A stretch of DNA of 64,000 bases. Origin: Phycisphaerales bacterium. Its GTDB lineage: Bacteria > Planctomycetota > Phycisphaerae > Sedimentisphaerales > Anaerobacaceae. The notes beneath the pieces are model-generated. The model did no database searches. It was given only the letters and a program-made list of their open reading frames with translations, and was not told where the DNA came from. The translations under genes and the position numbers were made by a program. Positions 616-62,162 of the stretch are shown in pieces. Positions within the stretch are counted from its first letter, which is position 1; each line of letters opens with the position of its first letter. The DNA lies in NCBI GenBank assembly GCA_030602885.1, contig JAUVYV010000006.1, positions 1 through 64,000 of the forward strand. Direction: 5' to 3'.

Positions 616-3600
616 ATGACGAGAAAGCGACTTTCGGCGATTTTCATTACGGCCTTATTGTGTGCATTTACGAATGATGTATTTCCCCACGGCGGCTGTA
701 CGTATCCTACAACTCCGGCTTTGGTTAGTCCTACCGGCGGTGCAACCTGTCAACCAATCAGCGGGGTGACACTTACGTGGCAGGACTGTTCTAACGAAAC
801 CTCGTACCGGGTGTATTTCGAAGCGGAAGACCCCACTCCCGACGATTACGTCACCAAGGACCAGGATGTTACCTCTCATAATACCGGTGCGTTAGAACCG
901 GATACAACTTACTATTGGAAGGTCAGGGCTATAAACAGTTGCGGCTCGCGTACCTCTGCGGTTAGGAGCTTCACTACAAGCTGTACGACGGCGGTACTGG
1001 ATTCTGAAGTGAAGCATACGATGACGGGTCTGGCGGTGACTTTTGATGCGAGTGGGTCCGTGCTTACAGAGGCAGACCGGTATATCGCGAAGTACGAGTT
1101 TGACTTCAACTGGCCAGATGAAAACCCAGCGAATTTTGATCCGACGGCTGAAGACGGTTACGTCGAATGTCTGGAGGATTGCGGAGATGTGAATCGTACC
1201 CATTATTTTGACGGTATCGCCAGCTACGCGTACGAGGAGGCCGGTGGGTCCCACCTCGGTGAGCACATCGTTGGCTTGCGGGTGACGGATAGTACCGGAT
1301 ACACCAGCCCCATTGTTACCTGTAAGGTTTACGTCCACCGCAGCGTTGCTCCATACGGTACAGATGCCGACTACGATGATATTCAGGATGCTATTGATGC
1401 TTACGAAGCTAGCTGGGATGATAAAGAGGTTTGGGTCGCGCCAGGGACCTATAAATCCTATCAATCTCCATATCGTGAACTGTTCACGTTTCCCAGTGAC
1501 AGCAACGGTATTATCTTACGAAGTATCGATCCTGATGATCCTGAAGTAGTCGGGAAAACAATCATAACGGACGGTATCCAAGCCCCTATAGACATAATGG
1601 AATTTGATACCGGTATTGACAGCACTACGAAGCTCCTTGGCTTTACAATAGCGTATGGATCTAAAGCTATATACTGCAATGGCGGGTCGCCGACGATTGA
1701 GAACTGCATCATACGAGGGAATTATGATGGTATCTACAATGATAGCGGTGCGTCACCGGTGATTGAGAACTGCATCATACGAGGGAATTCCACCGGCATC
1801 TACAATGATAGCGGTGCGTCACCAACAATCGAGAACTGCGTGATTCGGGACAACTCCAGTCGCGGCGTGTACAACAAAAACTCGGCAAGCCCTACTCTGC
1901 TTAACTGTGTTCTCAGTGATAACGGTAGCTCCATCAACAGAGCAGGCGGCATGGTCAACAATAATGAAGATGGAGGTGGAGATCTGAGCGTTGTCGCGAC
2001 AAACTGTATTTTCAGTTATAATGAGAGTAATTTCTCTGGCGGTTACGGTGGGGGGATTCACAATTGGCAATCTGAACTTTCGCTGGTTAACTGCACCTTT
2101 GCACACAATACGGCTATAACAGGGGGTGGCGCAATATATAACGGCTATAATTCCGGCTCTGCTTCCATAACTATGAGGAACTGTATCTTGTGGAACAATC
2201 AGTCAGGGGGTGTAAATCCTGAAATATATAAAGAGAACGGAAGTATATCGATAGCATATTCCGACATCAAAGACTGCTATGACGGTGAGACATGGGACAA
2301 CTCACTTGGCACTAACGATGGTGGGAACATCGATGCGGATCCCAACTTTGCCAACTCCGAAGACCCTGCTGGGCCGGATGGGGTTTTTCTGACCGCGGAC
2401 GATGGGCTGCGACTTCAGCCGGGGCAAGGCAGTCCGTGTATTGACCAGGCAAGCGATGATGTTGTGAATTACTCCACGACAGACATTACAGGCCGAGACC
2501 GAATCGATGTCCGTTATATAGACGATGCCGGCTCGGAGACAGGCTACCCCGATATGGGAGCATATGAGACGCCGATGGTGTGGTTCGTGCGAAAGAATAC
2601 CAGCGGAGGAGATGATGGTAAATCCTGGGATACGGCGTTTGACGAGCTCAGCAGCGCGCTGGATCCTGTTTCTGAGAATCCTGATCTTATATACGGCGGT
2701 GAGATATGGGTATCCGCATCGCCGAGTGACAGTCCTTATCTACCGGGCGACGAGCGGACGGACTGTTTTGAGGTGGTCTGGAAAATCGCAGTGTATGGAG
2801 GATTCCCTGCGGAAAAAGATAGACCAACGTGGCTTGACCGCGACTGGCAGACGAATGAGACAGTTCTGAGTGGTGATATAGACGCCGGAGGCAATCCGGA
2901 CGATGACAGCTACCACGTGGTAATGATGGGGCCGCATAAGGATATCCTCGATGGATTCACGATTACGGGCGGATGTGCCAGTGGTTCCTCCTGGCACGGG
3001 TACGGTGGTGGTATTTACTGCTACGGGATATACAGTACGCCGGTTATTTCCAACTGTAAGGTTGTCGGAAATTATGCCAGTGAATATGGCGGTGGTATGT
3101 ACAATAGTTCAGGTACCGCAACTGTGACCAACTGTACGTTCTCGGGTAATTACGCCGGATTATATGGTGGTGGAATGTACAACCGCTGGGGAGCGCATGA
3201 TATCGAGAACTGCCTTTTTCTCGATAACATAGCGGGTTGTGGAGGAGGGATGTACAACAGAGACTATTCGCCCAAAGTAAGCAATTGCGTTTTTGCCGGG
3301 AACCGGGCGGATGTGGCTGATACCGATATGGCAGGAGGGGCTATCTACAACACGGAAATTAATGAAAATCCGGAGATTATCAATTGTGTATTCTATGCCA
3401 ATACTGCGGCCAACGGGGGGGCGGTCTATAATTCGACGGGAAGCTCACATGTGCACTATCTAAACTGCACCTTCTACGAAAATACATTACTCGGAGAAGA
3501 AGGCGTGGGAGCTTCGATGTATAACTACATGGCGTACCCGACGGTAACGAACTGTATTTTCTGGAACAGTAAAGAGGACGACTCATCGGATTATGCGGAG

Positions 3601-9600: not shown

Positions 9601-12600
9601 TATGATGAGTTCATATACAAGGCTTATGACAGCCAATTGGAGTCTGAGGCGGCTACCGTCCGCGTGAATGTAAATAACAAGCCGGACCCTGATGATGACG
9701 ATAAGGAAACCGAACGTCATATAGTTGCTGTTGTTGATATCCTCGCCAATGACAGTGACGGCGACGACGGAACACAAACGCTGACGGTTACCAACCTGGT
9801 ACAGACCCAGACAGGGCCTAATCCGGATAATGAACATTTCGTTTTCAATGAGAAACTCAACCTGTTGCTCTACTGGCCGGATCCCGACGCAGAGACAACA
9901 CACACATACCCCTACTTTGTGAAATTCACCTACAAGGTAGAAGATGAGTTCGGTCTCGAAAGCGACGATACCGCCCAGGTTGATATCAAGGTACTTGGAA
10001 CAACTGTTCTAAAGGATTCGGACGGCGACGGCCTCAGCGACGATGATGAAGAAGAGTTACTTGGCACGGACAAGCTCAGCTTCGACAGCGATGGTGATGG
10101 TGTCGATGACGGCAAGGAACTCAGCCAGGGCACAGATCCGAGCAACCCGTTTTCGGGTTACTTCGTCGACCGATTGCCTTATGTCTGCAGATTCTTATGG
10201 AATCAGGACTACAAAATTGATGAATCGCTGGATGGGCAGTGTGGCTGGGAGGTGGATCAAGAAGGTGACTGCCAGCTCGGATACAAGTTCCTTTACTCGT
10301 ATAAAGTCCCGGGTACAATCGACGAGTATGTTCGCAATGGCGCCTGGGTTGCCAAACTCAATCCCGATTCTGATACAGCAACGAAGATCAGTAAGGCGTT
10401 TGACGATAAGGGTGAAGACGACGATCTCAGCAACGTCATCAGGATAAAATTGTATCCGGCAAATAATGCCGAAGTGAAAATATACTCTGACACTACGGTT
10501 ATTGCCGGCATCAAGTTTTTCTACAGTGAACCTGACGTCCGCAAGCTACAGTACTGGGATCCCGACCCATCTGAATTAGATTGGTTAGATTCAGGTGAGA
10601 CGTGGGACTATTATCCGGGTGATAAGGAGCCGCTTTCTGATGGCACTTTTTTTGAGCATTACTGCGCAAATCTGCTCAAATTCGAGTTCGATTTCACCAA
10701 AACTGATAGTGATCCCGACCCCAGCGGCAAGGTTAAGATATATTGGGACAAAAACTATGCAGCCAATGACAAAAACGACGACTTCGAGGTTGCCGATGTG
10801 CTGCTGCGCAATTTGGAAGATCTTGTTTTCACAAGCAACGGAATGAACGGGCATTTTTCTGATACAATCAAGGACATAACCAGAATCGAGTTCGGCACTC
10901 CCGAAAATACCACATTTGAGGTCCGCGGTGTATATATCCATGAAGCGGACTATGCTACTCACGAAATTACTTATCCGCACAGCGGCGACAACGTCCAGGA
11001 ATCAAGAATCCCCATCAAAGGGCATTGTTCAGTAAATGCTTCAACCTATCTGCTTAGGGTACATGCGAAAGAGACCATGGGGGCAGAAGCGGATGCCGTC
11101 GGGCCCTGGCTTTTTAATATCCGCTACTTCAGCAATACTATCGTAGATCCGCAATTTTACAAAGGCGCTGCTGATGTGGACGTCCTGGGATACTGGAACA
11201 CGGGGGTATTGCCAAGCGATATTTACCATGTAGTTATGACAGAGGCAAAAGATTTTGTGTATGAACACCCATCAGATCCTAACAAGAGCCGGATTATATG
11301 GTACAGGTCCAGCGAGGATTCTGTTGCTCGAAATGTAGCAACATCGGGTTTTGTCAAGAACAACACATTCCGCCATGAAGAAGTGGAGATATCAGTGCCC
11401 TGGCCGGGTGAGTTTGGCTTCGAGTGCAGGCGCATCTACGATAGCGGACGTGGCCGGGTAAATTCAGGGCTGTTCCCCGGCTGGACGAATAACAACCAGA
11501 TTATCCTGACCGAATACGCAGACTACTACGAATCGTCACAGTGCGAGAAAAAGGTAAGAGGCGAAATAGCAGACAAGGATGATAGCGGCCTGGCCTTCGG
11601 AGCGATTTACGTTCAATACGAGGACGGCTCGACGCATATGTTCAGGCATCGGACAGGCACTGTGGACGGCAACGAAGCCGTTTACACTCCTTATCCGGAT
11701 GACGGCTCGGGTGATTATATCATTAGAACAACAGAGGGGTACGTGGCAGTCTGGCACACGCCTCAACTTATCAGCGACTTTCCTTACGGCGATGACGATC
11801 CCGGCTATTATAGGTGTAGTCCGGACCCGGAAGAGAATGGTTTTTTACTTGAAGACAATAACCTAACAATCAGTTATGAACTGAATCGCTCCGACGGCAC
11901 GAAGCTAACCTTTTACTCGGTTGAGCACGACAAAGACTCCGATGAGGATCCGATAGCAATAAATGTAAATGACTGCCACGATTGGAAAGATGAGTGCGAG
12001 TGGCCCGTTGATGCGGAGTGCTTTACAGAGTATTATCCCAAGGGTGGCGCAGTTTATTCGGATATCGGCGGTGGCTGCGAGGGTGATACCGGATGGCATT
12101 TTAGACATCCGGACCACGCCCCCAAATGGCGGTTCGTCACCGCCGTGGACACAAAATCCGACCGTTACGGCAATACACTGCATTACACATGGAACGAGAA
12201 CAAATACAATCCGCTTGTGAATAAAGTATCATACAACGATGGTACCGAGCCAATTTCAATTGAGCTCGAGGGCACTATTTACGGATATGATACTATCCTG
12301 AAGGTGAATGATGACGCAAAGCGTACGGTTTACCACCGTTTTGCTGACGGTTCGTGGTGGCTTCTTGAGGTGTCCACTGAACAACGTGATGATGCAACAT
12401 GCTACTATTACGGACCTGATTCACTTATTTACGGTATTTTTGATGATTTTGCCGTTTATACCTCATTGCCCTGGGGATATTGTTACCGGCCGCCGTGGTC
12501 GGCTCTCAAAACCTTGATTTGGTATGACAGTAGGCGCAACTGCGTTGCCCGCGATGATTATGTCGATTACAACGACCAGACGTTTCTGATGCGCGACTAC

Positions 12601-15600
12601 TGGTATTACTTCCTCGATCCGGATTCGGGTAACGAGGAAGATGGCCAGTGCGTGTTCAAGGCGGTGGATTACCGCACCTGCAGCCAGGGTGTGATAGCCC
12701 CTCCGCACAGGACAGATATAAGCATTATCAACGAAAAGGGCCAGTTGCGGGTTCAAATGCCATATGTCGGCAATGACCCCACCAAGCTGACCAATTTCCG
12801 TTATACCAACACGAAATTGCCTTTCACCCCGACAGAGATGGTTGAATACTGGGACTACTACGATCCCGAGACCGAGTTGCTGAAGGTGGCTGGGCGAAAA
12901 ATATTAAACACCTTCCGAACAGACAGGCACCTGAACCCCGTGCCGGATACGGGAAACCCTGACGATGTCAATGCGTGTGTCCTGGATACCCAGAAAATAT
13001 ACGATATGGGTCGGGACATACAGCCCGGCACCGAGCCGGAAGGGACACTTGTTTCGTACACCGAGAAGCAGTACCACCCCTATCCCGGCTACAACTGGGA
13101 AACCGAGAGCATTTCCTACCAGCATCTTGACCAGGCCGAGGTCCAGCACGAGAAACCCGTCAGAACTCAATACGTCTATCGCAAGCGTCACACAGATGGC
13201 ACATACGTGGAGGATACGACGTATCCGCAGAACAACAGATACCTGTGGAAAAAGCGGGCTCTTCTTGACGAATCGCCCGACCCGGACCTCTGGGCCGAGA
13301 CGGAGTACAACTACGAACATCGGACAGGCCCGGGGCTTGATGGAACCGTCGATACAGAGGACGATACATACGCGCTGACAAAGGTGATCGAAGACTATAG
13401 TGACGATGGAATCTCCGATGTCGATAACGCCACCATCTTCACCTACGACAACGACCATCGCAAAAAATGGGTAAAGGCCGACCGGCTCACAAATGGAACG
13501 CCCGCTGGCGAGGTCCCGGTGGAAAGGTTCTGCTACGATGATATCGGCCAGCTTTTACTAAAGGCCGATACGTACGGTCTTGTGACCAAGTATCATTATA
13601 ACGACTTCGGCGACGTCGAAAAAATCGAGACCTTCGCCGACAGCGATGCTCTCAAAACTGACACGACATTTGAGCCGGCGACGTACGACAACTTCACGCC
13701 TCGTTCCACAACTGAATACGAATACGACCATCAGCGGCGAAGGATTACCGAAAAGACTCAGTCGCAGGAAAAGAAAGCGGCTGGAATTCCGGTGGCTGTC
13801 AAACGGACTGAATATATAGGTGCCGGGCTGCCGAGTAAGGTGATCTTCGATACAGACGGGCTTATCGATACACCCGATGATAGCTTCGTCGAATACTTCT
13901 ACGACGGGCGGGGTCTGAAGTTAGCTGAGAAAAACTATGACCGAATCACCGACAGGTGGTGGTACACCGACTACTTCTACGATAATCTCAACAGAAACGT
14001 CTCGACGGTCTGGTGGGACTATAAAGACAGCTCGATTCTGCAATTCACTACCGCCGTTTATAACGGCCCCGGTGAAAAGGCCCTCGAAGAGGTCTGGGCG
14101 CTCGATGCCAAAGGTAGATGGCAGTTGCAGGGCGAGTCGGCGAGTCTCTACGACGGTTTAGGCAGAATGACCGACCAGATGGTCGCATACGACTTTGACG
14201 AGGCCGATCCGCTCTGGCTGACAACTTCGTTCGGCTATGACGATGCGGGCAACCAGACAGCCGTAACGGACCCAAAGGGCAGTATCATCTACACCGATTA
14301 CGATAACGCCAATCGTAAAACATTAGATTACTTCGCCGTAGCGCCTGCAGCAGAAGTTACCGACCTGGTCAGCCACTGGACATTTGACGAAGGAGCAGGC
14401 GATATCGCATACGATTCGGCAGCGGCAGACAAAGACGGCAGCGTGTCCGGGGCGATCTGGACGGCCGGTCGCATCGGCCGGGCCCTGAGCTTTGACGGTG
14501 ATGCTGACAATGTAGAGGTGCCCGGCTTCTCTGATTTACTGGGTGCGGATTACAGTCTTTCCTTCTGGGTCAAGCCCAATCAACCGGCCCTTTCTGAGAT
14601 TATCGTGCTGGGAGAAGATGCCACCAACCACGACTTCGAGTATTACATGGAGAGTAACGGGGATCTGAGCGTCAGAGCCGATGCCGGCAGTGAAGATGAC
14701 ATCACAGTCAATAATGTATTTACCGAAGGGCAATGGGTGCACATCTGCGGAGTGGGCGACAGCACCGGCACAAAGGTATATGTTAATGGTGTCCTCGCCG
14801 ACAGCACCGCCGTCAAGAAGGACAGCACCAGCGGGTATAGTCTGAATATCGGCTCGTGGGACAATCATAGCTGGAGCTTTGATGGGATTATCGATGACGT
14901 TCTTGTTTACGATCGGGCGTTGAACGAGGCCGAGATCAATATGATAATGAACGCCGGCGGCGGTGTTCGGGCAGAGACCGAATATTACGAAAACGGGCAG
15001 GTGGCGGCTGTCAGCAGTTACGACTATGACGAAGATACGCTGGCCTATAAGGAATTTGATTACGACAGCAGAAAACGTATAGCAGCAGTTATCGAAGATA
15101 TCAACGACAGTAACACGGCTGAGACGACCTATGCATACGAAGATGCCAATGACAGCGCCTTCACAGTTGACGACCAGAATTGCGCCAATGTGACAATCAC
15201 CAGAAAAGGTGATTCAAGCCCCGACGATGATATAGTTACCCAAGTGGCCTATAACGAGCTTGGCAAAGTGGTTAAGACCGTATACCCCTCGACGCAGTAT
15301 CAGCAGTTCACATATAACGGCGACGGGACATTGATGAAGAAAAAGGTATGGGATGCTGAGGACCCGCCTGTTGCCCACTGGGTCGAATACGACTACGACC
15401 AGTACGCCCGGGTGGAAAAGGTCTCTTACCCCCCGACCGGCGATCAATACATCGAGTACACATACGACGGCTTAGGTAGGGTTATGCAGATTGACGACCA
15501 GCGGGATGCCGCCGACTGCATACCCGGCACAATCACTTATGAAAATGACCCACTTGGCAGGCTGCTTGCCGTTACCGGCCAGGACGGCTACCGCATCGAT

Positions 15601-17349
15601 TACTCGTACCGGGCCGACGGGCAAAAACAGAGAATACTGGCGAGTAATCCGGCAGGTGAGATTATCTATAAGGCTGGCTATGAGTTTGACTTGGCCAGCC
15701 GGCTAAAACAGGTTGTCAGGCCGTCGCTCATTGTGCCTGCACCGGCTGAGGCGCTTATAGCCGGCTTCGGCTACGACGATAACGGCAACCGTAAACAGCT
15801 TAGATACTACTTAGATGGCAACGATACCGGTGATATAGCCCAAATCGGATACAAGTTCAATCGCGATAATATGCTGATCAATTTGACGACTATGGGTACT
15901 ATAGAGGATCTGGAGTTTGCGCTCTACAACGTCGTTGTTGACGGCTTGGGCCGATTGGTTTCAGCCGACGAAATTTTGACCAAAACCGACCAGACTTCTC
16001 TTGCACATGACTACACCTACGTTTACGATATGCGTTCACAGCTTACACGGGTTGACAGAGATGCTGCCATTCCGTGGCGAGAGTATAGCTATAACAAAAA
16101 CGGTAATATGAGCTATCGCAAGGTTGAAACCGCCCAGACGGACTACGGCTATACCGGTGAGCGGCTTACCGGTGCTACCAACGCCGAGATATTTAGCGTT
16201 ACCTGGGACGAGAACGGCGATATCGACTCGGCGGGTCATACCGGCTGGGATTACGAGTTCAACTGGGATAATAAGCTGCGAAAGGCCACTAAGGGCAGCG
16301 ACACCATCGAAATAAAGTACGATCCGCAGGGCAACCGTATCTATAAAGAAACGGTCATCTCCGGCCAAAACACGAAGCGAAAATATATTGTTGACATTGT
16401 CGGCGATTTGCCGGTAATATTGTTGGAGTTGGATGCGAGTACGATGGATATCGAAAAAACCTACATCTACGCTAATTCTCAGATTCTTGCCCAGCATGAT
16501 GGCGATCAGGCCACGGGTGATATCTACTTCTACCTCCACGACAGATTAGGCTCCGTACGCCAGATTATCGACGATGACGGCCTGGTAGTGATGCTCTATA
16601 CATACGATCCGTTTGGGGAAGTAGTCGAATCCGATGGCTCATTCGATAACGCCTTCCGCTTCACCGGCCAATACTACGACGACGAGATAGAGCAGTATTA
16701 CCTGCGAGCCCGCCAGTACGACCCGAAGATTCACGTGTTCACGTCTCGTGATTTATTCGATGGTGTCTTTGAGCAGCCGTTAACGTTACACAAGTATCTG
16801 TACTGCATCAATGACCCGATCAACTTCGTCGACCCGCAGGGTCTGGATGCTTATTATCTTACCGGTGGGGTCCTGGCATCTTTGGGCTTTAGTTTTGCAG
16901 AGCAAATGGGAATAACCTGGGATGATGAAGGGAATTGGGGTATTATTGGGATAGAAAGTGTGGGAGGTGGTTCACTGTCAGCGTCCGTGGGTATTAATTT
17001 CGGCATCACAAATGCTGAAACTATATTAAGGCTGCGAGGTCCGGGCAGAGCCATTGGCGGGGGTTTTGGAGTTGGTTTTGGCGGGGGAGCAGAAGTTATT
17101 TGGGGAAGATATTACTATGGCTTAGAGTTTTCGGTTGGCTTGGGTGTTTCATGGCCGGCAGTTGAAGTCCATGCCCATAGAACGCAGACTTATGTACGAC
17201 CGGTCCACAGCGAGACTCTAATTTTCGAAGACATTCTTGGGATGGCATTGGCAGAAGCCGTAGCTGAGGCTGATACCTATGGAGAGCATCGGATGATAAT
17301 AGATTTTGTGGTAATGACCGGTCTGGATTTGGATGTCTTGTATCAATGA
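616..17349 (+). CDS. Giant secreted beta-helix / RHS-repeat protein (5,577 aa)
   Basis: A single uninterrupted frame of 16.7 kb with AAGGAGG upstream of the ATG. Approximate order of domains: signal peptide 1-25; FN3-like 30-122; PKD-like 125-240; five right-handed beta-helix blocks (250-650, 655-1140, 1360-1775, 1780-2275, 2280-2815), each closing with a GxPDMGAYE-type segment as in choice-of-anchor Q proteins; two FN3-like domains between blocks 2 and 3 (1145-1355); Ig/cadherin-like repeats 2825-3130 (VLANDxD motifs); a TSP3 calcium motif 3134-3182 (DSDGDG twice); RHS/YD repeats from about 3600, interrupted by a LamG domain at 4585-4780; RHS core with DRLGSVRQI, YDPFGE and YYLRARQYDP at 5309-5410; then a unique 167-aa tip. 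RHS shells encapsulate a C-terminal effector in known systems. I infer an exported, possibly surface-attached adhesin or effector carrier. Secretion route and tip function are unknown. Confidence 0.9.
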   Translation: MTRKRLSAIFITALLCAFTNDVFPHGGCTYPTTPALVSPTGGATCQPISGVTLTWQDCSNETSYRVYFEAEDPTPDDYVTKDQDVTSHNTGALEPDTTYYWKVRAINSCGSRTSAVRSFTTSCTTAVLDSEVKHTMTGLAVTFDASGSVLTEADRYIAKYEFDFNWPDENPANFDPTAEDGYVECLEDCGDVNRTHYFDGIASYAYEEAGGSHLGEHIVGLRVTDSTGYTSPIVTCKVYVHRSVAPYGTDADYDDIQDAIDAYEASWDDKEVWVAPGTYKSYQSPYRELFTFPSDSNGIILRSIDPDDPEVVGKTIITDGIQAPIDIMEFDTGIDSTTKLLGFTIAYGSKAIYCNGGSPTIENCIIRGNYDGIYNDSGASPVIENCIIRGNSTGIYNDSGASPTIENCVIRDNSSRGVYNKNSASPTLLNCVLSDNGSSINRAGGMVNNNEDGGGDLSVVATNCIFSYNESNFSGGYGGGIHNWQSELSLVNCTFAHNTAITGGGAIYNGYNSGSASITMRNCILWNNQSGGVNPEIYKENGSISIAYSDIKDCYDGETWDNSLGTNDGGNIDADPNFANSEDPAGPDGVFLTADDGLRLQPGQGSPCIDQASDDVVNYSTTDITGRDRIDVRYIDDAGSETGYPDMGAYETPMVWFVRKNTSGGDDGKSWDTAFDELSSALDPVSENPDLIYGGEIWVSASPSDSPYLPGDERTDCFEVVWKIAVYGGFPAEKDRPTWLDRDWQTNETVLSGDIDAGGNPDDDSYHVVMMGPHKDILDGFTITGGCASGSSWHGYGGGIYCYGIYSTPVISNCKVVGNYASEYGGGMYNSSGTATVTNCTFSGNYAGLYGGGMYNRWGAHDIENCLFLDNIAGCGGGMYNRDYSPKVSNCVFAGNRADVADTDMAGGAIYNTEINENPEIINCVFYANTAANGGAVYNSTGSSHVHYLNCTFYENTLLGEEGVGASMYNYMAYPTVTNCIFWNSKEDDSSDYAEGGEDLWSEVYTYIDPEDEDPPLPSFRACNIKGSGGSGENWDESIGVDSCASYEVECHSSPIDIVNMDEDPMFVDSSASGIMGPDGIWGTYDDGLQLNNGSPCIDVGDFQTEQETQLEDLDIKGQDRVLYGYDYWLPPDTTVVDIGAYEHFPWPVLEEPNEYVSFCISWQEDVKLEWERPLVEKIGSCQSDRKYDGEYDVYFGTSLTDGYPPYWDHVDDLYETIYADDGLEFKAGTTYYWAVRCRWSEEPKDCSGYSQVWSFRTAPAKATLTYPQDEAEDVPLDSKLQWEPADTAVLHAVYLGTDAEHLIYQYTQYETEYDPGGLEPDKEYYWRIDEIDENGCVTEGETGEWWELWNFHTGPSNILQGLIDEASLGEVIILEPGVYVENVTVNKNITIKGADTSDPSKTVIKGHSTKSDPIFTVASDVTVTCTIEGVTVINEYGPAIECGTNSDVTITNSVIRGSGWSDGVYSEGSALTITNCTISDNGGNGIEYEYTSAGSGYIDISGCTISNNSGAGIYLPNTYSGDFAVTATIRDCILIGNGGGIELEEGNGGSTTIERCVFYQNKRTSGGGIKVFGHANHALYLKNCVFSSNEAMSYYGGAIYYEYLSSINPTQPLEVYNCTFTENKANYYGGALYFTGIHGGPSTTFSMVIYNSIFWDDVATTSGNEIYINASLCTYFITLENCRIAGDEVESPSSAITIGDTCFDDDPLFADAGNPAGPDGIFLTEDDGLQLQPSSPCVDIGTNATGVPATDILEASRINMPGWGNESPPFVDVGAYEAQVVWHVDKNVQGGDSTGLSWENAFDDLQEALDDTTLNPYLEVGHEIWVADGTYEPGAARADTFQLVSGVEIYGGFAGNETSRYQRDWKLNETILSGDIDAGDLDSYHVVTGSGTDDTALLDGFTITGGNAALPGGGGMYNNAGSPTVVNCAFKGNYSLLYGAGVRNRDESQASFENCTFEENEAKSGAAVHNDDSNCTFTNCTFNSNISSSTTSGGGGMANYDSDPALTNCTFTGNTATKNGGGIYNSNSVPVLTGVTFTDNSAEEGGAVYNCVGSEGTYSQCVFVENSVAGGGGGIYDDASSPALINCLFWGNEAADGAGMFNAADSNATLINCTLVGNEASNNAGSIYNDSSNPILTNSILWGNLAGDFNEIRNVNSSPTIKYSCIEDSGGSDNWDASFGVDEGGNIDVAPRFADPNNPAGPDGVFGTVDDGLRPVPYNDLQSDLEQGFMPTYIDSADSTVAPDTDITGRARVDVPYIVNAGSEQAGFADMGAYEAPVVWYVNASAKGGRGRGWSWETPLDDLQKALEVAESGDEIWVAKGVYTPGADREDCFHLTKDKPVAIYGGFSGTKDSLAKRDWIANETILSGEIGYADEAKDNCLHVVRIDCDGATLDGLTIRDGCGIYGGGIYIDDASARITNCVIRGNYATGGGGGICVDGGSPTISNCIIINNRRPASIPQFIVKYGGGLRSYYASPIITGCLFTGNRARYGGGMWSDHSDITVTDCVFRENKSNSTGGGLCSNRSSVVLTNCLFTGNHNTLMGGGISLDRDSPATITNCTVAWNSVRSQTPYYGAGLHDYAGNSAETPDCIITNSIFYKNVPSGALQIYLSSSGYAATISYCDIEGGCSGIGGTGGYTCCPTSVIGDDPDFVDKPEFYDRTIADGGIDTIIVPGATVALYRVGDIIEYGEEGQYDGQSRVVTQVDYDWGIVRFEPPLGPETPTAADAQIKVWGRYALTLYDDDNDKFNTKGIGRLQTNSPCIDTGLDDAIANDIDDIDGDGVTTEKLYDTDIMGVPRFQDIPGVPNPELDDVIDMGAFECGGLTADDVGVGSVNEDTATEIDLAPYISDMKGGLVTYEIIVPPRHGTCSPSDADNDDTITYTPAEDYFDADGDLFSYKATDGINLSEIATVTIGTIASQNDNPVANDDVAWINEAGSITIDVLANDEDPEGVTLTIASGSGAPQNPPPSYGTLAVVSDNIQYTVIDWPNLESTGYDEFIYKAYDSQLESEAATVRVNVNNKPDPDDDDKETERHIVAVVDILANDSDGDDGTQTLTVTNLVQTQTGPNPDNEHFVFNEKLNLLLYWPDPDAETTHTYPYFVKFTYKVEDEFGLESDDTAQVDIKVLGTTVLKDSDGDGLSDDDEEELLGTDKLSFDSDGDGVDDGKELSQGTDPSNPFSGYFVDRLPYVCRFLWNQDYKIDESLDGQCGWEVDQEGDCQLGYKFLYSYKVPGTIDEYVRNGAWVAKLNPDSDTATKISKAFDDKGEDDDLSNVIRIKLYPANNAEVKIYSDTTVIAGIKFFYSEPDVRKLQYWDPDPSELDWLDSGETWDYYPGDKEPLSDGTFFEHYCANLLKFEFDFTKTDSDPDPSGKVKIYWDKNYAANDKNDDFEVADVLLRNLEDLVFTSNGMNGHFSDTIKDITRIEFGTPENTTFEVRGVYIHEADYATHEITYPHSGDNVQESRIPIKGHCSVNASTYLLRVHAKETMGAEADAVGPWLFNIRYFSNTIVDPQFYKGAADVDVLGYWNTGVLPSDIYHVVMTEAKDFVYEHPSDPNKSRIIWYRSSEDSVARNVATSGFVKNNTFRHEEVEISVPWPGEFGFECRRIYDSGRGRVNSGLFPGWTNNNQIILTEYADYYESSQCEKKVRGEIADKDDSGLAFGAIYVQYEDGSTHMFRHRTGTVDGNEAVYTPYPDDGSGDYIIRTTEGYVAVWHTPQLISDFPYGDDDPGYYRCSPDPEENGFLLEDNNLTISYELNRSDGTKLTFYSVEHDKDSDEDPIAINVNDCHDWKDECEWPVDAECFTEYYPKGGAVYSDIGGGCEGDTGWHFRHPDHAPKWRFVTAVDTKSDRYGNTLHYTWNENKYNPLVNKVSYNDGTEPISIELEGTIYGYDTILKVNDDAKRTVYHRFADGSWWLLEVSTEQRDDATCYYYGPDSLIYGIFDDFAVYTSLPWGYCYRPPWSALKTLIWYDSRRNCVARDDYVDYNDQTFLMRDYWYYFLDPDSGNEEDGQCVFKAVDYRTCSQGVIAPPHRTDISIINEKGQLRVQMPYVGNDPTKLTNFRYTNTKLPFTPTEMVEYWDYYDPETELLKVAGRKILNTFRTDRHLNPVPDTGNPDDVNACVLDTQKIYDMGRDIQPGTEPEGTLVSYTEKQYHPYPGYNWETESISYQHLDQAEVQHEKPVRTQYVYRKRHTDGTYVEDTTYPQNNRYLWKKRALLDESPDPDLWAETEYNYEHRTGPGLDGTVDTEDDTYALTKVIEDYSDDGISDVDNATIFTYDNDHRKKWVKADRLTNGTPAGEVPVERFCYDDIGQLLLKADTYGLVTKYHYNDFGDVEKIETFADSDALKTDTTFEPATYDNFTPRSTTEYEYDHQRRRITEKTQSQEKKAAGIPVAVKRTEYIGAGLPSKVIFDTDGLIDTPDDSFVEYFYDGRGLKLAEKNYDRITDRWWYTDYFYDNLNRNVSTVWWDYKDSSILQFTTAVYNGPGEKALEEVWALDAKGRWQLQGESASLYDGLGRMTDQMVAYDFDEADPLWLTTSFGYDDAGNQTAVTDPKGSIIYTDYDNANRKTLDYFAVAPAAEVTDLVSHWTFDEGAGDIAYDSAAADKDGSVSGAIWTAGRIGRALSFDGDADNVEVPGFSDLLGADYSLSFWVKPNQPALSEIIVLGEDATNHDFEYYMESNGDLSVRADAGSEDDITVNNVFTEGQWVHICGVGDSTGTKVYVNGVLADSTAVKKDSTSGYSLNIGSWDNHSWSFDGIIDDVLVYDRALNEAEINMIMNAGGGVRAETEYYENGQVAAVSSYDYDEDTLAYKEFDYDSRKRIAAVIEDINDSNTAETTYAYEDANDSAFTVDDQNCANVTITRKGDSSPDDDIVTQVAYNELGKVVKTVYPSTQYQQFTYNGDGTLMKKKVWDAEDPPVAHWVEYDYDQYARVEKVSYPPTGDQYIEYTYDGLGRVMQIDDQRDAADCIPGTITYENDPLGRLLAVTGQDGYRIDYSYRADGQKQRILASNPAGEIIYKAGYEFDLASRLKQVVRPSLIVPAPAEALIAGFGYDDNGNRKQLRYYLDGNDTGDIAQIGYKFNRDNMLINLTTMGTIEDLEFALYNVVVDGLGRLVSADEILTKTDQTSLAHDYTYVYDMRSQLTRVDRDAAIPWREYSYNKNGNMSYRKVETAQTDYGYTGERLTGATNAEIFSVTWDENGDIDSAGHTGWDYEFNWDNKLRKATKGSDTIEIKYDPQGNRIYKETVISGQNTKRKYIVDIVGDLPVILLELDASTMDIEKTYIYANSQILAQHDGDQATGDIYFYLHDRLGSVRQIIDDDGLVVMLYTYDPFGEVVESDGSFDNAFRFTGQYYDDEIEQYYLRARQYDPKIHVFTSRDLFDGVFEQPLTLHKYLYCINDPINFVDPQGLDAYYLTGGVLASLGFSFAEQMGITWDDEGNWGIIGIESVGGGSLSASVGINFGITNAETILRLRGPGRAIGGGFGVGFGGGAEVIWGRYYYGLEFSVGLGVSWPAVEVHAHRTQTYVRPVHSETLIFEDILGMALAEAVAEADTYGEHRMIIDFVVMTGLDLDVLYQ
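1696..1893 (+). repeat. 66-bp tandem repeat, three copies, inside beta-helix block 1
   Basis: Units begin at 1696, 1762 and 1828 and start with att/atcgagaactgc. The first two are nearly identical at DNA level and the third is diverged. 66 nt is 22 residues, the length of one beta-helix coil (IENCIIRGN... YNDSGASP), so the repeat expands the solenoid by whole turns without breaking the frame. Confidence 0.85.
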
Positions 17350-56072: not shown

Positions 56073-56434
56073 AGCTTACCTCCTAACGTTAACATTCACA
56101 ATTTACCCATCCAACCCGGAACGCACATAACCCCTCGCGCCCGGGACTGTTTACTCCGCCCGGTATTAGCCTGACTGCCTTACTGAACAGTTTTGCGTTT
56201 CGACTTATCGCCATTGGTCCGGTTCCAGGATAACCGTTAGCATAAGCGTTGCCCTGATAAAAAGATATAATAACACGGGAGAGTGGGACAGGCACCTTTT
56301 TTCGCAGAGACGGGGGGGAAACGGCCAGTGGCGGGGTCGAACTGGGCCCCGGATCGGAGTCCGGGGTCCCGCCGGAGGCGGGTAAACTGCGCGACCTTGG
56401 CGTTGGGTCCCCTGCTGCTGGGCCATTGGAGGAG

Positions 56435-56482
56435 CAGTTCCTCTGCTGCAGGACCAAAGTAGCAATCCCTCGAGAACAAGCG
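56435..56482 (+). repeat. Left copy of 48-bp direct repeat
   Basis: Starts cagttcctctgctgcagg and ends with cctcgagaacaagcg. Matches 62021-62068 with one difference in 48 (gagaac versus gaggac). Same orientation. Flanks the accessory operon at 57.2-61.6 kb. Confidence 0.85.
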
Positions 56483-56620
56483 GGGGTCTGCGCGACCCTG
56501 GCGGGTCGCTTGAAAATTGGGTTCGTTTTGGGTTTGATTGGGTTTGCTTTGGGTTTGTTTTTCATTGGCATAATTCGCGGTTTTTGACGTAAGGGTTTTC
56601 TGCGTAAAGAGTTAGGTAGC

Positions 56621-56870
56621 ATTTTGCCTATTTTAACATTGGGTTTGTTTGGGTTTGTTTTTTGCGGCCCGAAGGGGCTATTTTTCTCGTAATCTCTTTT
56701 ATTGTATAGGGTTAGGTTCATATTTTGCCTATTTTAACATTGGGTTTGTTTGGGTTTGTTTTTTTGCGGCATTTTCCAAGAAATTTTCTGTAAGTCCTTT
56801 TTGCGCATAGAGTTAAATGTTGTCTAGTTATTTTGACATTGGGTTTGTTTTGCATAAAAAGGTGTAAATT
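56621..56870. repeat. Degenerate tandem repeat, unit about 100 bp
   Basis: The block attttgcctattttaacat followed by tgggtttgtttgggtttg recurs at 56621 and 56722; a shorter copy has ttttgacattgggtttg at 56831. Spacing of the ttttaacatt/ttttgacatt word is 101 and 99 bp. More g/t-rich partial copies precede it at 56515-56570. Confidence 0.8.
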
Positions 56871-57211: not shown

Positions 57212-58273
57212 TTACTTACCGTTATGGAGTGAATACGTTTTCATGCGAAGACACAGTGGGTCCGGAGCTTTAAGCAATTGTCCGTGCGTTATATACTTCT
57301 GGGCCGTACAACCGGAACAACATTGATTGACGTCTCTACATTTTGAACAGGGTAAGTGCAAAGGAGCGGCAATGTATTCTCGTACCGAATTTAGGTAGGG
57401 GGAATTCTGCCAACATTCACGAAGGGACCATTTGGCCAGCGTAGAGTAAGCATCAGTCCCAACAACATCCATACTCTTTACCTGCTTGAAAGCATCACAG
57501 GGTGAAATAGTCAAATCTGGCGCAACCGTTAATCTGTCAATGCCAGCCATGCACTTGGGGCTCTGACTACATAATAGTATGCTGTATGGTGAGCCAATTC
57601 GGATCTCCACGTATTTCTTAGCATCGATTATTAACTGGGATAGTGCCTTGGTTTGCTTCTGAGACAAGACAATTCCATCTACTCCTTTACTTCGACCCTG
57701 GGGAACAAGGCGTAAAATGCTAAGTTGTTCAATGCCGAGTTGCCCGGCTAAGCTAGCAAGCTTAGGAAGCTCTAAGTAATTGGCTACCATTGGCACAAAA
57801 TGAAGCTCCGTTTTCAAACCGAGTGATTTTGAATGACGAATTGCTTCTATGGTCTGCTGGTGACTTTCGCCTACCATTGTTACTGCATCATGCGTGGCTG
57901 GTGTTGCAGCATAGAGGCTGAAGATAATTCGATGCAAGCCAGAATCAGCTAGGTTTTTGATTATAGTCTTGCTATTGGGAACGACGCCTGAGGTGTACAC
58001 GGTAGCCGGCAGTTCTGCTTCGGTACAATTGTGAATCAACCTTCTAAGATTCGGCCATAGCAGCGGATCTCCACCAGAGAAAGCGATGTGCTGGACTCCC
58101 ATGGCAATCGCTTGGCTGATTATGCGATCCGCATCTGTATATGACATTTCTGCCGTGCTGTCTGAACATGCTTCACTGGAACAGTGGATACATCGCAACA
58201 AGCAGCGATATGTCAGTTCAAGTTTGATTTCTTTCAAAGTATAACGGTTGGACAATGGCACTTCCTGCCTCAT
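57212..58273 (-). CDS. Radical SAM / SPASM protein
   Basis: 353 aa. Cluster motif CLLRCIHC at Cys24, Cys28, Cys31; SAM-binding SGGDPLLW, TVYTSG and IIFSLYA. The C-terminal SPASM domain has CMAGIDRLTVAPDLTISPCD, a CSKCRDVNQCCSGC Cys cluster and a last PLCLR, so two auxiliary [4Fe-4S] clusters are likely. SPASM enzymes modify peptides, sugars or cofactors by radical chemistry. No precursor peptide is visible nearby. Last gene of the minus-strand operon, 8 nt after the hmdU-kinase-like gene, hence likely acting on its product or substrate (inference). Confidence 0.85.
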   Translation of the reverse strand: MRQEVPLSNRYTLKEIKLELTYRCLLRCIHCSSEACSDSTAEMSYTDADRIISQAIAMGVQHIAFSGGDPLLWPNLRRLIHNCTEAELPATVYTSGVVPNSKTIIKNLADSGLHRIIFSLYAATPATHDAVTMVGESHQQTIEAIRHSKSLGLKTELHFVPMVANYLELPKLASLAGQLGIEQLSILRLVPQGRSKGVDGIVLSQKQTKALSQLIIDAKKYVEIRIGSPYSILLCSQSPKCMAGIDRLTVAPDLTISPCDAFKQVKSMDVVGTDAYSTLAKWSLRECWQNSPYLNSVREYIAAPLHLPCSKCRDVNQCCSGCTAQKYITHGQLLKAPDPLCLRMKTYSLHNGK

Positions 58274-58281
58274 CGATGGTT

Positions 58282-59301
58282 CTATGTGCTTCTAAGCATA
58301 TTGTTTATATTCCATTTAGGAGGATACCAATAGTGAATGGGATCAGCTATAGGCTTAAATTTCTGCTTGATGCGTGTTCGTCCCGATCCATTAGCTTCAG
58401 GATGGGCAATACGGGAATACTTATCCACTTCGCAAAACAGGTTCTGACAATCAATCAACTGCAAGGGTCTGTCTCCAAGGTATTGGAAGGTTAACCCTAA
58501 ACGCTCAAATTCTTCCTTTTGTCTGTTTGTAACACGAAGGATTAGTTCTGGTTCGGAAAGGCCACCAAGTGATTTAAAGCACTTATAGATTCCATTTTTT
58601 GCCCCGGGACCAGGAACAACAAATTCCATTTCAGAAAAATCTGTTAACTCGCTGTAGTTCAAGTCTGTGACCAACTGATAGGCAAGGAAGTCGCCGATAG
58701 TTGGATATGAACGCAGAATATCAAATGCTGCTGCCATGTTGCGAGCGTTTGATATCAATTCGTAAGCACGATCTTCCATCATTCTTTCCAATAGCTTGAG
58801 ATGGTTACTATGTTTTCGAGTGAAGCCAAACGCAGAGTTTCCACTCGGCATGATATATGCGGCCGAATATATGGGTTGTTTGCAATCCATAGTCTTGCTG
58901 AGTAATTTGTCATAGTCGGCAAAGGAGTACCCAGAATAGCAGATCGTACCCAATTCGTTTGTAAGCATTTCCCATGTCTCAATCTTGTTGAACAGCTTGA
59001 ACAGAATTATCCGAAAAAAGACTTCTGGCGGTGAGGGGTCGCCTTTGTAAATTACCTCTCGAATAAGGTATTGACTTACGCGGTCTGACGCACGATAGGC
59101 GTTGGTAAACTTATACTTTTGCAGGATCGCATCTTCCGTCCAAGGGCCCCACTGCTTGCCCATTCGGCGGAAAAAGACTGCCTGTCGCTCTACAGCAAAC
59201 CGCCAGTAGGTGTCAAAGACAACCGACGGGATAGCAGGAGCCCATGCTCGTCGCACCATTTCTGGTGCAACTAATTCTGATGATGCGAGGGTGTTAGGCA
59301 T
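58282..59301 (-). CDS. Protein similar to 5-hmdU DNA kinase helical domain / thymine hypermodification enzyme
   Basis: The ATG at 59301 has GAGGG 5 nt upstream and overlaps the previous stop by 8 nt; the frame extends to 59334. 339 aa, mostly helical. The N-terminal half has FDTYWRFAVERQAVFFRRMG, GPWTEDAILQKYKFTNAYRA and SDRVSQYLIREVIY, which I recognise as the helical domain of phage 5-hmdU DNA kinases and alpha-glutamyl/putrescinyl-thymine enzymes. Later FLAYQLVTDLNYSE and ELILRVTNRQKEEFERLG continue that family. No Walker motif is visible. By analogy it handles a 5-hydroxymethyl-pyrimidine or its DNA adduct; assignment by motif memory only. Confidence 0.65.
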   Translation of the reverse strand: MPNTLASSELVAPEMVRRAWAPAIPSVVFDTYWRFAVERQAVFFRRMGKQWGPWTEDAILQKYKFTNAYRASDRVSQYLIREVIYKGDPSPPEVFFRIILFKLFNKIETWEMLTNELGTICYSGYSFADYDKLLSKTMDCKQPIYSAAYIMPSGNSAFGFTRKHSNHLKLLERMMEDRAYELISNARNMAAAFDILRSYPTIGDFLAYQLVTDLNYSELTDFSEMEFVVPGPGAKNGIYKCFKSLGGLSEPELILRVTNRQKEEFERLGLTFQYLGDRPLQLIDCQNLFCEVDKYSRIAHPEANGSGRTRIKQKFKPIADPIHYWYPPKWNINNMLRST

Positions 59302-60076
59302 TAGTCCCTCGCGCTCTTTCGTAATCCTCAACACACGATTTTATGTTAAGCGCCAAATGTCGCAATGGAGTCTTCGCTGGAGTCCCTACACATGCTACGC
59401 CAACGAAGCATGTCATTTGAGCCAACTCCAAGCCCATTTGAGTTGCCATAAACTGTCCCAACCGACACAAGCCCAAATAGTTGCCATACCCACGATCGAA
59501 AATATGTTCTTTAGGGTAATACCCCGTAACACAAAGCCCTGATTTGTGGATTCGTGCAAAGCCCACTTGCTGAAGGCAGGGAAAACCACGTTGTCGTTGG
59601 TGTGTAGCATCGCAGGTAGGATCAAATATGGAGGCTTGAAGAGCACTACGGCGATGATTACCTTTGTTTGTATAGGTCTCAATAATGTACTCAAGCTGAT
59701 TCTTCTTGCTGTCACCAACTCCATAGGCGATGAGGCGTTCAAAGTACACTCCATTGTAGTTGCCCTTGCATTTATGAATCTGGCTTAGGATTCGCAGATA
59801 TCGTTGATAAAGGAGAGTCCGTTCTTTGTTACGGTTCCAATAACTTCTTGGAAATATAGTGTTGGCTACCGTATGGCAAGACCCCAAAGAGTTAGATGCC
59901 AAACTAACATCAACTGCTTTTCGGATTTCCTCGTGTTCAGGAATGAGGTCATTGCTCAAGTCTGTGACTGTTACCGTCATAGGTGAAATCTCAGGGTGTT
60001 TCATAGTTGCCAAAAAGGCTTTTGCCCAAGCGATTGAAAGATTCGCTTCATTGATGTGTGTCGAATAGCTACTCAT
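59294..60076 (-). CDS. Divergent thymidylate-synthase-fold protein
   Basis: Start at 60076, preceded by GGAGG, overlapping the peptidase stop by 8 nt; upstream ATGs lie inside the peptidase gene. 260 aa. HRRSALQASIFDP (Arg pair 142-143), GFPCLQQVGF (Cys167) and HIFDRGYGNYLGLCRLGQFM align with the RRxxxxxWNP, PPCHxxxQF and DxFLGxPFN motifs of thymidylate synthases: the nucleophile Cys, an Asp and an Asn are kept, but the PPCH His is Leu. Phage relatives hydroxymethylate dUMP or dCMP. A pyrimidine-modifying role is likely; exact reaction unknown. Confidence 0.72.
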   Translation of the reverse strand: MSSYSTHINEANLSIAWAKAFLATMKHPEISPMTVTVTDLSNDLIPEHEEIRKAVDVSLASNSLGSCHTVANTIFPRSYWNRNKERTLLYQRYLRILSQIHKCKGNYNGVYFERLIAYGVGDSKKNQLEYIIETYTNKGNHRRSALQASIFDPTCDATHQRQRGFPCLQQVGFARIHKSGLCVTGYYPKEHIFDRGYGNYLGLCRLGQFMATQMGLELAQMTCFVGVACVGTPAKTPLRHLALNIKSCVEDYERARGTNA

Positions 60077-60932
60077 GATCGACCTCCGGAAAATGGCGAT
60101 ATTGTGCCAAGCCTTCAAAATGCAGGCGTGAAACTCTGATGTGTGACGCCCAACGTTCGGCTTCATTCTGCGCTCTATCGATACCTTGAGCAACAGCTCT
60201 GTATAGCAAACCATGTGGACAGGTCGCTATGAACTCCATACGAGTTGCCTCAAGAATTGTTTGTGAGGGTACAACAAGAATATCTCCTACACAAAGATCG
60301 ACAGGTTTCTCTCCCCAATACTTATCCAGGAGTATGAGTTCTCCCGAATGCTCAACTCCTGCAATCGCACTTTTAAGAATTTTGGGAGAAACTCTACTTA
60401 ATCGCTGAAAACTGCGTGATGAAATAAGACCAAGTGAACGATACATGTGTGTTAATAATGATTGGTATCCAACCCCAATATGGCCAGAGACGGCAAAGGT
60501 TTGCTCCGGAGTACATTCATCTATCTTCCAGCCTCTACTAGTAAATGCCTTGCATACGGCTAATTTAGGCATCAGAAGGAAACCAGCAAAACAATCAGCA
60601 AGAAACTCGTCTGGGTCCCATTGCTTCTTTGATACAGAATCGATGACTTCGTCTATTCGATTCCCATGGGCGAAGACATGATGTCCATATTCATGTGCAC
60701 AAGTAAATGCTAATCTGCCTCGAGGGCGGCAAGATGAAAGTAATATAAGTGGATTCTCATCATTGTAGTAAAGGCCCTCCATGCTTGAGATATTTTGAAA
60801 ACGAACCTCAATACCAAAATGATACATTAAGTCACAGACACAAATAGAAGAGGCAGGGCCTATTTTGGCGCGGCGACGCTCCTGAATAGCTGCTCTATGT
60901 GCCTTGCGAGCCAATTTCACTTTTGTACTCAT
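60069..60932 (-). CDS. ImmA/IrrE-type metallopeptidase
   Basis: 287 aa. Zinc motif HEYGH at 80-84 in FTCAHEYGHHVFAHG and third ligand Glu in PDEFLADCFAGFLLMP. In ImmA and IrrE, such proteases cleave an Xre repressor to release an operon in response to stress. Here the Xre gene lies immediately upstream with an ATGA overlap, so a regulatory pair is strongly suggested. The C-terminal half (SGHIGVGYQSLLTHMY, a long region to VSRLHFEG) is larger than the minimal peptidase and unassigned. Confidence 0.85.
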   Translation of the reverse strand: MSTKVKLARKAHRAAIQERRRAKIGPASSICVCDLMYHFGIEVRFQNISSMEGLYYNDENPLILLSSCRPRGRLAFTCAHEYGHHVFAHGNRIDEVIDSVSKKQWDPDEFLADCFAGFLLMPKLAVCKAFTSRGWKIDECTPEQTFAVSGHIGVGYQSLLTHMYRSLGLISSRSFQRLSRVSPKILKSAIAGVEHSGELILLDKYWGEKPVDLCVGDILVVPSQTILEATRMEFIATCPHGLLYRAVAQGIDRAQNEAERWASHIRVSRLHFEGLAQYRHFPEVDHE

Positions 60933-61279
60933 TGCCCTCTACCTCTCTTTGGCCGCAAGGCACTAAGCAACTTCATTATTTTGTCGAGATCATCAGATTT
61001 GAGCTTCGCCAATTGACGAGCAGCAAAGCGAACACGTCTGTCATCATGTTCAGAATCTGATTCTGAGCCAGCCAGCCATTTCATGTCGATACAGTATATT
61101 TCCGACAGTCTTGTCAGTTCATCCGCTGAGACCCGGCGGCGGCCAGCTTCCATCTCAGAGATAGACGGTCGATGGAGCCCAAGAAGTTTTGCGACTTGAG
61201 CCTGTGATAGCCCGGCCATTTCGCGCGCTGTTCTAAGGCGTGATGCAATTAGCTTGCGACCTTCACCTAAATCAGTCAT
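60929..61279 (-). CDS. Xre-family HTH regulator
   Basis: 116 aa. SRLRTAREMAGLSQAQVAKL then LGLHRPSISEMEAGRRRVSA is an HTH_3 domain; IYCIDMKWLAG follows as the dimerisation helix and a basic C-terminus KPKRGRGQ-like ends it. ATGA overlap with both the upstream ACP gene and the downstream peptidase gene. It probably binds the palindrome at 61585 and is the target of the ImmA-like protein. Confidence 0.88.
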   Translation of the reverse strand: MTDLGEGRKLIASRLRTAREMAGLSQAQVAKLLGLHRPSISEMEAGRRRVSADELTRLSEIYCIDMKWLAGSESDSEHDDRRVRFAARQLAKLKSDDLDKIMKLLSALRPKRGRGQ

Positions 61280-61563
61280 GATTTCTTCCTCTTCTTTGAA
61301 GTAGCCTCAAGAATACGATCTGCAATTTCACCGACGGACAAAGCACGTGTGCCGTCTTGGGAGGCACACAAGTTGCCAACGTCACCTATGTTAACTTCTG
61401 CGTCAACCATTGCGGCAAACTCAACTCCACTGAGGCTATCAAAGCCAAGGAGATCGCCGATCGGAACCGTTTCCTCATTTATACTAATTTTCTCGCGACC
61501 ACTAATGTCTTGGATTTCCAAGAGTAGCTTTGCGGCAAGTTTCACGATTTCATTACGAGTCAT
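61276..61563 (-). CDS. Acyl/peptidyl carrier protein-like
   Basis: 95 aa, GGAG upstream of the ATG. Carrier protein fold with GDLLGFDSLSGVEFAAMVDA: Ser43 in the DSL motif is the expected phosphopantetheine attachment point. Flanks diverge from fatty acid ACPs and there is a long loop (SGREKISINEETV). First gene of the operon. No ketosynthase, adenylation or thioesterase gene is nearby, so it may deliver an acyl or aminoacyl group to the modification enzymes; that is inference. Confidence 0.72.
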   Translation of the reverse strand: MTRNEIVKLAAKLLLEIQDISGREKISINEETVPIGDLLGFDSLSGVEFAAMVDAEVNIGDVGNLCASQDGTRALSVGEIADRILEATSKKRKKS

Positions 61564-61584: not shown

Positions 61585-61599
61585 GTAAGATTATCTTAC
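61585..61599. promoter_or_regulatory. Palindromic operator candidate
   Basis: GTAAGAT-T-ATCTTAC, a perfect 7-bp inverted repeat centred 29 nt before the ACP start, in AT-rich upstream DNA. Position and symmetry fit an operator for the operon's Xre protein. Confidence 0.6.
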
Positions 61600-61705
61600 A
61601 TCGAACTTTGGCTTCTGGCAACAAAAAAAAGAAGTTGATAGGAAAATATTTTGTATTCAACCGTAAGTGCTTATTAGATAAGGAATAAGATGTGAATAAT
61701 TATTT

Positions 61706-61942: not shown

Positions 61943-62020
61943 GCGGAGGGCCATCTCACGGGGCAAGCGGGGAAAGTGAGAAGTAAGAATGGGTCCTCTG
62001 TAGCCAAGCCAAGGTAGCGA

Positions 62021-62068
62021 CAGTTCCTCTGCTGCAGGACCAAAGTAGCAATCCCTCGAGGACAAGCG
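62021..62068 (+). repeat. Right copy of 48-bp direct repeat
   Basis: Matches 56435-56482 at 47 of 48 positions, same orientation. Together the copies bracket about 5.6 kb containing the six-gene operon. The repeat also extends imperfectly to the left (gggtcc...ctg). Confidence 0.85.
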
Positions 62069-62162
62069 AGGATAAACTCAGGGTAAACTCAAGTGTGCAA
62101 CCCGCCGGTGGAACCGGGGGCTAAATATTTCGCCTGCAGGCAGGTGGGGGGGGTTAGTCGGT

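Follow-up and report, generated by a model that had tools for sequence, protein, structure and literature searches.

What is the function of an operon that sets a carrier protein and a repressor–peptidase pair ahead of a thymidylate-synthase (TS)-fold enzyme, a protein of the HMUDK_hel family and a radical SAM/SPASM enzyme? The operon is found in positions 1 to 64,000 of contig JAUVYV010000006.1 (assembly GCA_030602885.1) from a Phycisphaerales bacterium, a stretch that we refer to as the window, where six co-directional open reading frames (ORFs) run along the minus strand from 61563 to 57212. On balance, and with confidence only a little above even, we favor the view that it is an inducible anti-phage cassette, derepressed by damage in the manner of CapH/CapP, which would make a modified pyrimidine nucleotide, regulate itself and spread horizontally. 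The genes, in order of transcription, are the following:

61276..61563, minus strand: carrier protein; small phosphopantetheine carrier of 95 amino acids (aa), with Ser43 in GFDSL
60929..61279, minus strand: Xre-family repressor, CapH-like; 116 aa
60069..60932, minus strand: ImmA/IrrE metallopeptidase, CapP-like; 287 aa, HEYGH
59294..60076, minus strand: TS-fold enzyme; 260 aa, catalytic Cys167 and Asn199
58282..59301, minus strand: HMUDK_hel protein; 339 aa, predicted helix-hairpin-helix (HhH) glycosylase-type fold, without kinase domain
57212..58273, minus strand: radical SAM/SPASM enzyme; 353 aa

Successive genes overlap by 4, 4, 8 and 8 nt, and an 8-nt gap precedes the last; because the junctions overlap or lie so close, a single transcript is likely, as a preliminary description of the locus had supposed. 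The six assignments made in that description, in this order, all hold when checked by profile hidden Markov models (HMMs) and by comparison of folds.

Conservation of the gene order in unrelated genomes had been set beforehand as a test. Scanning bacterial and archaeal genomes with a profile produced 80 HMUDK_hel loci, and the addition of plasmids, genomes of the phylum and viral contigs brought the number analyzed to 102; all were picked by similarity to HMUDK_hel, and percentages among them are therefore conditional and not population frequencies. Carrier, Xre, ImmA and TS genes occur in that order in 65 of the 102 loci, which span at least 14 named phyla, and in every one of the 65 HMUDK_hel lies downstream of TS, sometimes separated from it by a deaminase or kinase gene. 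Judged from these sequences, the conservation of gene order is far beyond chance. The last slot of the cassette is variable, being filled by MazG plus MazG_C, by a second TS, or, as in the window, by radical SAM; the nearest relative of the window's operon (74% identity) is a Phycisphaerae cassette that is also of the radical SAM type.

A palindrome shared by these cassettes suggests how the operon is controlled. Two features stand ahead of the carrier gene:

61585..61599, strand not assigned: putative palindromic operator GTAAGA-NNN-TCTTAC; 21 nt ahead of the carrier start codon, conserved across cassettes
61593..61621, minus strand: predicted sigma-70-like promoter TTGCCA-17-TAAGAT; its -10 box lies inside the operator

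In the window the palindrome reads GTAAGATTATCTTAC (61585-61599) and is followed downstream by an extra half-site, GTAAG; a third half-site is frequent in other cassettes as well. Of 66 cassettes, 40 have the palindrome in perfect form and 53 have it with at most one mismatch, against an expectation of 0.03-0.04. The palindrome mostly lies 18-28 nt ahead of the start codon, is conserved across at least 11 phyla, and in its perfect form occurs once in this 3.2-Mb genome; those background-scored matches that were inspected proved to be near the carrier gene itself. Promoter-like matches in the carrier-upstream region are overall at chance level; TTGACA-like -35 boxes are enriched in the aligned cassettes (a mean of 3.80 matches versus a maximum of 2.84 in 200 shuffles). 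The simplest reading is that the palindrome is a repressor operator, conserved together with its repressor. It lies just outside the interval covered by the preliminary description and had gone unnoticed there.

Candidates for the repressor and for its antagonist are encoded by the second and third genes. The Xre protein matches HTH_31 (E 2e-14) and the PADLOC capH model (E 2.6e-15), and its recognition helix, HRPSISE, is conserved. The ImmA protein matches ImmA/M78 (PF06114, E 5.8e-12) and the PADLOC capP model (E 4.8e-13); H80, E81, H84 and E109, that is, the HExxH motif and Glu109, are invariant in 69 relatives. CapP is activated by single-stranded DNA and derepresses immune operons (PMC13373217, PMC10904395), and we infer the same trigger for the pair in the window. 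A conserved operator over the promoter, together with similarity to the CapH/CapP models, lends strong support to the Xre/ImmA switch that had been proposed.

Pfam lends the TS assignment little support, whereas other lines of evidence make it firm. The score of the window protein falls short of PF00303, but the protein matches the methanogen TS model TIGR03283 (E 3e-10), as do 39 of 39 TS-like relatives, all below the cut-off of that model; with 39.9 bits against a cut-off of 174.55, the window protein is, by sequence, a relative and not an equivalog. Its AlphaFold model (pLDDT 95.6) aligns to TS-fold structures with Z 14.6-17.2, the best matches being a phage TS-fold dCMP hydroxylase (Z 17.2) and the CMP hydroxymethylase MilA (Z 16.9). 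The catalytic Cys is invariant among relatives, and so is an Asn aligned with the one through which TS reads the pyrimidine. Fold and catalytic residues together predict a pyrimidine (hydroxy)methylase, and the earlier TS-like call stands. Could this be the housekeeping TS? We reject this possibility: a different TS, divergent (31.6 bits) and the sole PF00303 member found in the genome, sits among housekeeping genes on another contig (G000 contig C7, 5499-6389; locus L112), which makes the window TS an extra copy; ThyX was not found in the genome. A recent phage origin is likewise rejected, tblastn having given no phage match.

Membership of the next protein in HMUDK_hel is beyond doubt by sequence (PF18723, E 1.3e-109), in agreement with its earlier description as resembling the helical domain of 5-hydroxymethyldeoxyuridine (5-hmdU) kinases. 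The protein consists of that helical domain alone: the P-loop domain that defines 5-hmdU DNA kinase is absent, and an HMM scan found no P-loop family among the six operon proteins. A sequence search of the PDB gave no real match. Its AlphaFold model (pLDDT 93.6) predicts a glycosylase-type HhH fold; the top structural match, at the level of fold, is the phage 5-PmdU glycinyltransferase PUGT (Z 11.3 over 230 residues, 7% identity), followed by queuosine-5'-monophosphate (QMP) glycosylase (Z about 10) and then by DNA glycosylases (Z 5-9). One top match belongs to DNA hypermodification and another acts on a free nucleotide, so that the substrate may take either form.

In phages, HMUDK_hel genes stand beside or near TS in clusters with DNA polymerase. 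This neighborhood, and the fold match to a phage glycinyltransferase that acts on DNA, would suit an operon that marks the DNA of its host, or of a mobile element, with modified thymine for protection or epigenetic use, as phages do. However, a conserved operator that covers the promoter, coupled with an Xre/ImmA switch, is what might be expected of an operon that is off by default, rather than of constant marking; moreover, the P-loop 5-hmdU kinase domain is not in the window and no restriction partner was found in the cassette. We therefore think it very unlikely that the operon marks self-DNA. The thymine hypermodification pathway of the preliminary description thus survives in part: a TS-fold enzyme and a relative of a phage hypermodification enzyme are indeed present, but the kinase domain is missing, the substrate may be a free nucleotide as well as DNA, and control by a repressor argues against constant modification of self-DNA.

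The carrier scores low against its Pfam family: for PP-binding (PF00550) it gives E 0.017 and 15.8 bits, where the curated cut-off is 20.8, and 10 of 28 carrier members match that family at E up to 0.1. The phosphopantetheine Ser (Ser43, in a DSL motif) is nevertheless kept in 98% of 66 carrier relatives. A holo-acyl carrier protein synthase (AcpS) gene adjoins the cassette in 32 of the 102 loci, for which reason the carrier is probably a working holo-protein.

The radical SAM protein matches PF04055 (E 3.6e-18, 66.7 bits). Its CxxxCxxC motif (C24, C28, C31) is invariant among relatives, and a C-terminal SPASM-type motif of the form CX2CX5CX3C can be read directly as CSKCRDVNQCCSGC. The nearest solved relatives are PqqE and BlsE; curated NCBIfam cut-offs were reached for none of the families listed. 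A prokaryotic viperin was considered and rejected (39 bits for pVip versus 119 for PqqE). As a separate observation, a plasmid of Indioceanicola profundi (L120, 1174-8470) carries three radical SAM genes, two of whose products match the window-family profile, and a PqqD-like chaperone, all beside two TIR genes and SIR2.

The best hint as to how these parts belong together comes from a sister cassette, found on plasmids with distant TS relatives (L113, L114, L116-L119). Here the order is carrier (with xDSL), Xre, ImmA, C1 peptidase and TS, in most cases followed by a convergent gene of the uracil-DNA-glycosylase (UDG) superfamily and MazG_C, and often accompanied by holo-acyl carrier protein synthase or dCTP deaminase. 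A UDG-fold protein thus takes the place of HMUDK_hel, which means that two alternative glycosylase folds accompany the carrier-TS core. The swap hints at a chemistry directed at a base or nucleotide, and at a functional link between carrier and TS. Sister cassettes lack the GTAAGA-NNN-TCTTAC sequence; several have a palindrome-like sequence of their own, around TCGGACATT, ahead of the carrier.

The company kept by HMUDK_hel provides information of a different kind. Among the 102 loci, the core genes found nearby are TS (75), ImmA (73), Xre (71) and carrier (66); besides AcpS, the partners are MazG plus MazG_C (53), dCTP-deaminase-like genes (32), a second TS (30), TIR (17), Nmad2 (16), thymidylate kinase (15), radical SAM (12) and SLOG (7). 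MazG_C, dCTP deaminase, TS and thymidylate kinase all act on nucleotides. Counting well-supported branches alone, the HMUDK_hel tree, whose bootstrap values are not fully settled, requires at least four changes of radical SAM, nine of MazG and six of TIR, which shows that partners have been exchanged. Large proteins of 727-770 aa are encoded near some cassettes (L116, 7711-9894; L052, 10517-12697; L067, 12297-14522; L071, 505-2817): that of L116 is a metallophosphoesterase whose second half weakly matches thymidylate synthase, and the other three form a separate cluster of their own.

In some loci (L008, L014, L037, L048, L085, L091, L095 and L097) HMUDK_hel operons lack the carrier core. Most of these have a ThsB-like TIR together with Nmad2, and SLOG-TIR, thymidylate kinase or dCTP deaminase occur in some; in L008 a CBASS phospholipase gene overlaps HMUDK_hel, and no cyclase is annotated in the stretch read. 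Given CapHP-like control, TIR, SLOG and patatin partners in relatives, and published anti-phage activity of TS and 5-hmdU-kinase domains, a role in defence, as had been suggested from the sequence, is supported.

These partners also bear on a more specific form of the reading that we favor, namely that the product is a signal. As in Kongming or Thoeris, a non-canonical pyrimidine deoxynucleotide would activate an effector, encoded nearby or elsewhere, with TIR, SLOG or phospholipase as the candidates in relatives. In several loci TIR, Nmad2 and SLOG genes are arranged with HMUDK_hel as in an operon, and they stand beside complete cassettes in L034, L043, L052 and L082; the overlap of the CBASS phospholipase gene with HMUDK_hel in L008 is another point in favor; MazG, DCD and thymidylate kinase have free nucleotides as substrates; and the dITP messenger of Kongming offers a precedent (PMC12948488). 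Against this, the effector is missing from the window and from most cassettes, TIR being near in a mere 17 of the 102 loci, and the usual substrate of UDG- and HhH-fold enzymes is polymer DNA. A signaling role in this strict form strikes us as unlikely. With regard to membership of Thoeris or CBASS, no TIR or cyclase with a cognate effector is present among the six operon proteins.

Returning to the inducible anti-phage cassette, its mechanism can be sketched from what is directly established, namely gene content, intact catalytic residues, conserved order, a conserved operator-like palindrome, and folds. By analogy with known families, Xre would bind the palindrome over the -10 box and hold the operon off, until single-stranded DNA arising from phage infection or DNA damage activates ImmA, whereupon Xre would be cut and transcription released. 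The TS-fold enzyme would then add a one-carbon or related group at C5 of a pyrimidine deoxynucleotide, the pyrimidine again being suggested by known families. The phosphopantetheine carrier may supply or hold an acyl or aminoacyl intermediate, which the HhH-fold HMUDK_hel protein would transfer to the pyrimidine, either as a free nucleotide or as a base flipped out of DNA, and the radical SAM/SPASM enzyme would complete the added group. The product may harm phage replication, as a poisoned DNA precursor or an alarm nucleotide, and so protect against phage. The order of the chemical steps, the group carried and the choice between poison and signal are what we infer.

Several points weigh against this reading. 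Support for every member comes from sequence and predicted structures; donor and product cannot be read from sequence; and the loci were sampled by way of HMUDK_hel itself. The structural match of that protein is at fold level (Z 11 for a mostly helical protein; Foldseek E 0.24). The carrier falls short of its Pfam cut-off, no adenylation or acyl-loading enzyme is present in the cassette, and no killing effector (TIR, SIR2 or nuclease) is present in the window.

The distribution of the cassette is relevant to one further possibility. The neighbors of the operon are ordinary chromosomal genes: a PIG-L deacetylase, PrmC/HemK (by inspection), STAS and an RRM protein, the STAS family being multicopy, as became apparent when STAS was used to seek an operon-free site. 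The GC content of the operon is 0.44-0.47, compared with 0.52-0.56 in the flanks, and copies of a repeat lie on either side:

56404..56485, plus strand: dispersed repeat copy, far side of the operon; 83% identity to 61990-62071
61990..62071, plus strand: dispersed repeat copy, promoter side; pairs with 56404-56485

We rejected the idea that these are attachment sites: the repeat, of about 82-90 nt, is dispersed, with 31 matches across the genome. HMUDK_hel is present in six of 294 genomes of the phylum, and relatives of the cassette were found on plasmids and viral contigs. Flanking dispersed repeats, patchy occurrence and such relatives point to horizontal acquisition. If the operon were instead a stress response to DNA damage, with products that sanitise or repair modified pyrimidines irrespective of phage, then control of the CapHP/PprI type, which responds to DNA damage generally (PMC10904395), would fit, as would glycosylase-type folds and nucleotide-pool enzymes. 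A patchy, horizontally moved distribution and exchange with TIR and SLOG modules suit immunity better. We also know of no repair role for carrier proteins, and of all the readings we give this one the least credence. Three observations concern the surroundings: TTGGGTTTG-rich repeats recur at 101-nt spacing at 56520-56863; a single ORF of 5577 aa (616-17349) spans more than a quarter of the window; and a predicted viral contig from IMG/VR (L100) carries a full cassette of the radical SAM type adjoined by two large ORFs (615 and 706 aa) without Pfam match.

No description of the carrier-Xre-ImmA-TS-HMUDK_hel cassette, of its operator or of the glycosylase swap was found in the open-access literature, outside which fall Iyer 2013 and Burroughs 2015; these two are said to have probably predicted parts of this network. 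Carrier-protein chemistry has until now been linked chiefly with fatty acids, polyketides and peptides, and to our knowledge no described bacterial immune system uses an unusual DNA building block made with the aid of a carrier protein. Tentatively, as a possibility that we hold with well below even confidence, the cassette may represent a new form of innate immunity, in which an acyl or aminoacyl group, bound covalently to the phosphopantetheine carrier, is passed on to a pyrimidine nucleotide with the help of a TS-fold enzyme and of an enzyme with an exchangeable glycosylase fold (HhH here, UDG in the sister cassette), so that a hypermodified nucleotide not seen before is made upon CapHP-like sensing of damage. 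Were this true, bacteria would make an immune nucleotide by carrier-protein chemistry, and phage-type enzymes of thymine hypermodification would have a cellular, inducible counterpart. The conserved operator provides a handle for finding members and a simple test of control. The cassette also gives a context for unexplained defence hits of the 5-hmdU-kinase/TS kind, which may be members of a modular family whose glycosylase-fold, nucleotide-pool and effector parts can be swapped.

How does the operon compare with known systems? Of two enzymes of nucleoside-antibiotic synthesis, MilA is one of the best matches in structure to the TS-like protein and BlsE one of the nearest solved relatives of the radical SAM protein, with low identities. 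A nucleoside-antibiotic cluster, which these matches prompted us to consider, was set aside: the core recurs without biosynthetic companions, and the surroundings of the operon showed neither a biosynthetic cluster nor a transporter or resistance gene, so that the usual companions of a secondary-metabolite pathway are missing. The likeness to Kongming is one of principle, namely the idea that infection gives rise to a non-canonical deoxynucleotide; none of the Kongming genes was identified at the operon. In the DefensePredictor screen, 5-hydroxymethyluracil kinase and thymidylate synthase domains were newly shown to protect E. coli against phage (PMC13092281). Those systems resemble ours in having TS and 5-hmdU-kinase-type domains; the part of the description available to us makes no mention of a carrier, an Xre/ImmA pair, an operator or radical SAM, and a single blastn query with L097, a relative from Pseudomonas, gave no match in E. 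coli genomes. Phage clusters for thymine hypermodification (M6, PaMx11 and ViI types) share a TS-fold enzyme beside an HMUDK_hel-family gene, and the fold match to PUGT; they contain replication genes, whereas the operon, cellular and apparently repressed, has a carrier and a damage switch and is without the kinase domain. Immune operons under CapH/CapP control (CBASS and others) share the Xre repressor and HExxH peptidase with their probable target genes, and a palindrome at the promoter; there the pair accompanies a cyclase and an effector, whereas here it accompanies a carrier, TS, HMUDK_hel and radical SAM, with the carrier preceding the regulator pair.

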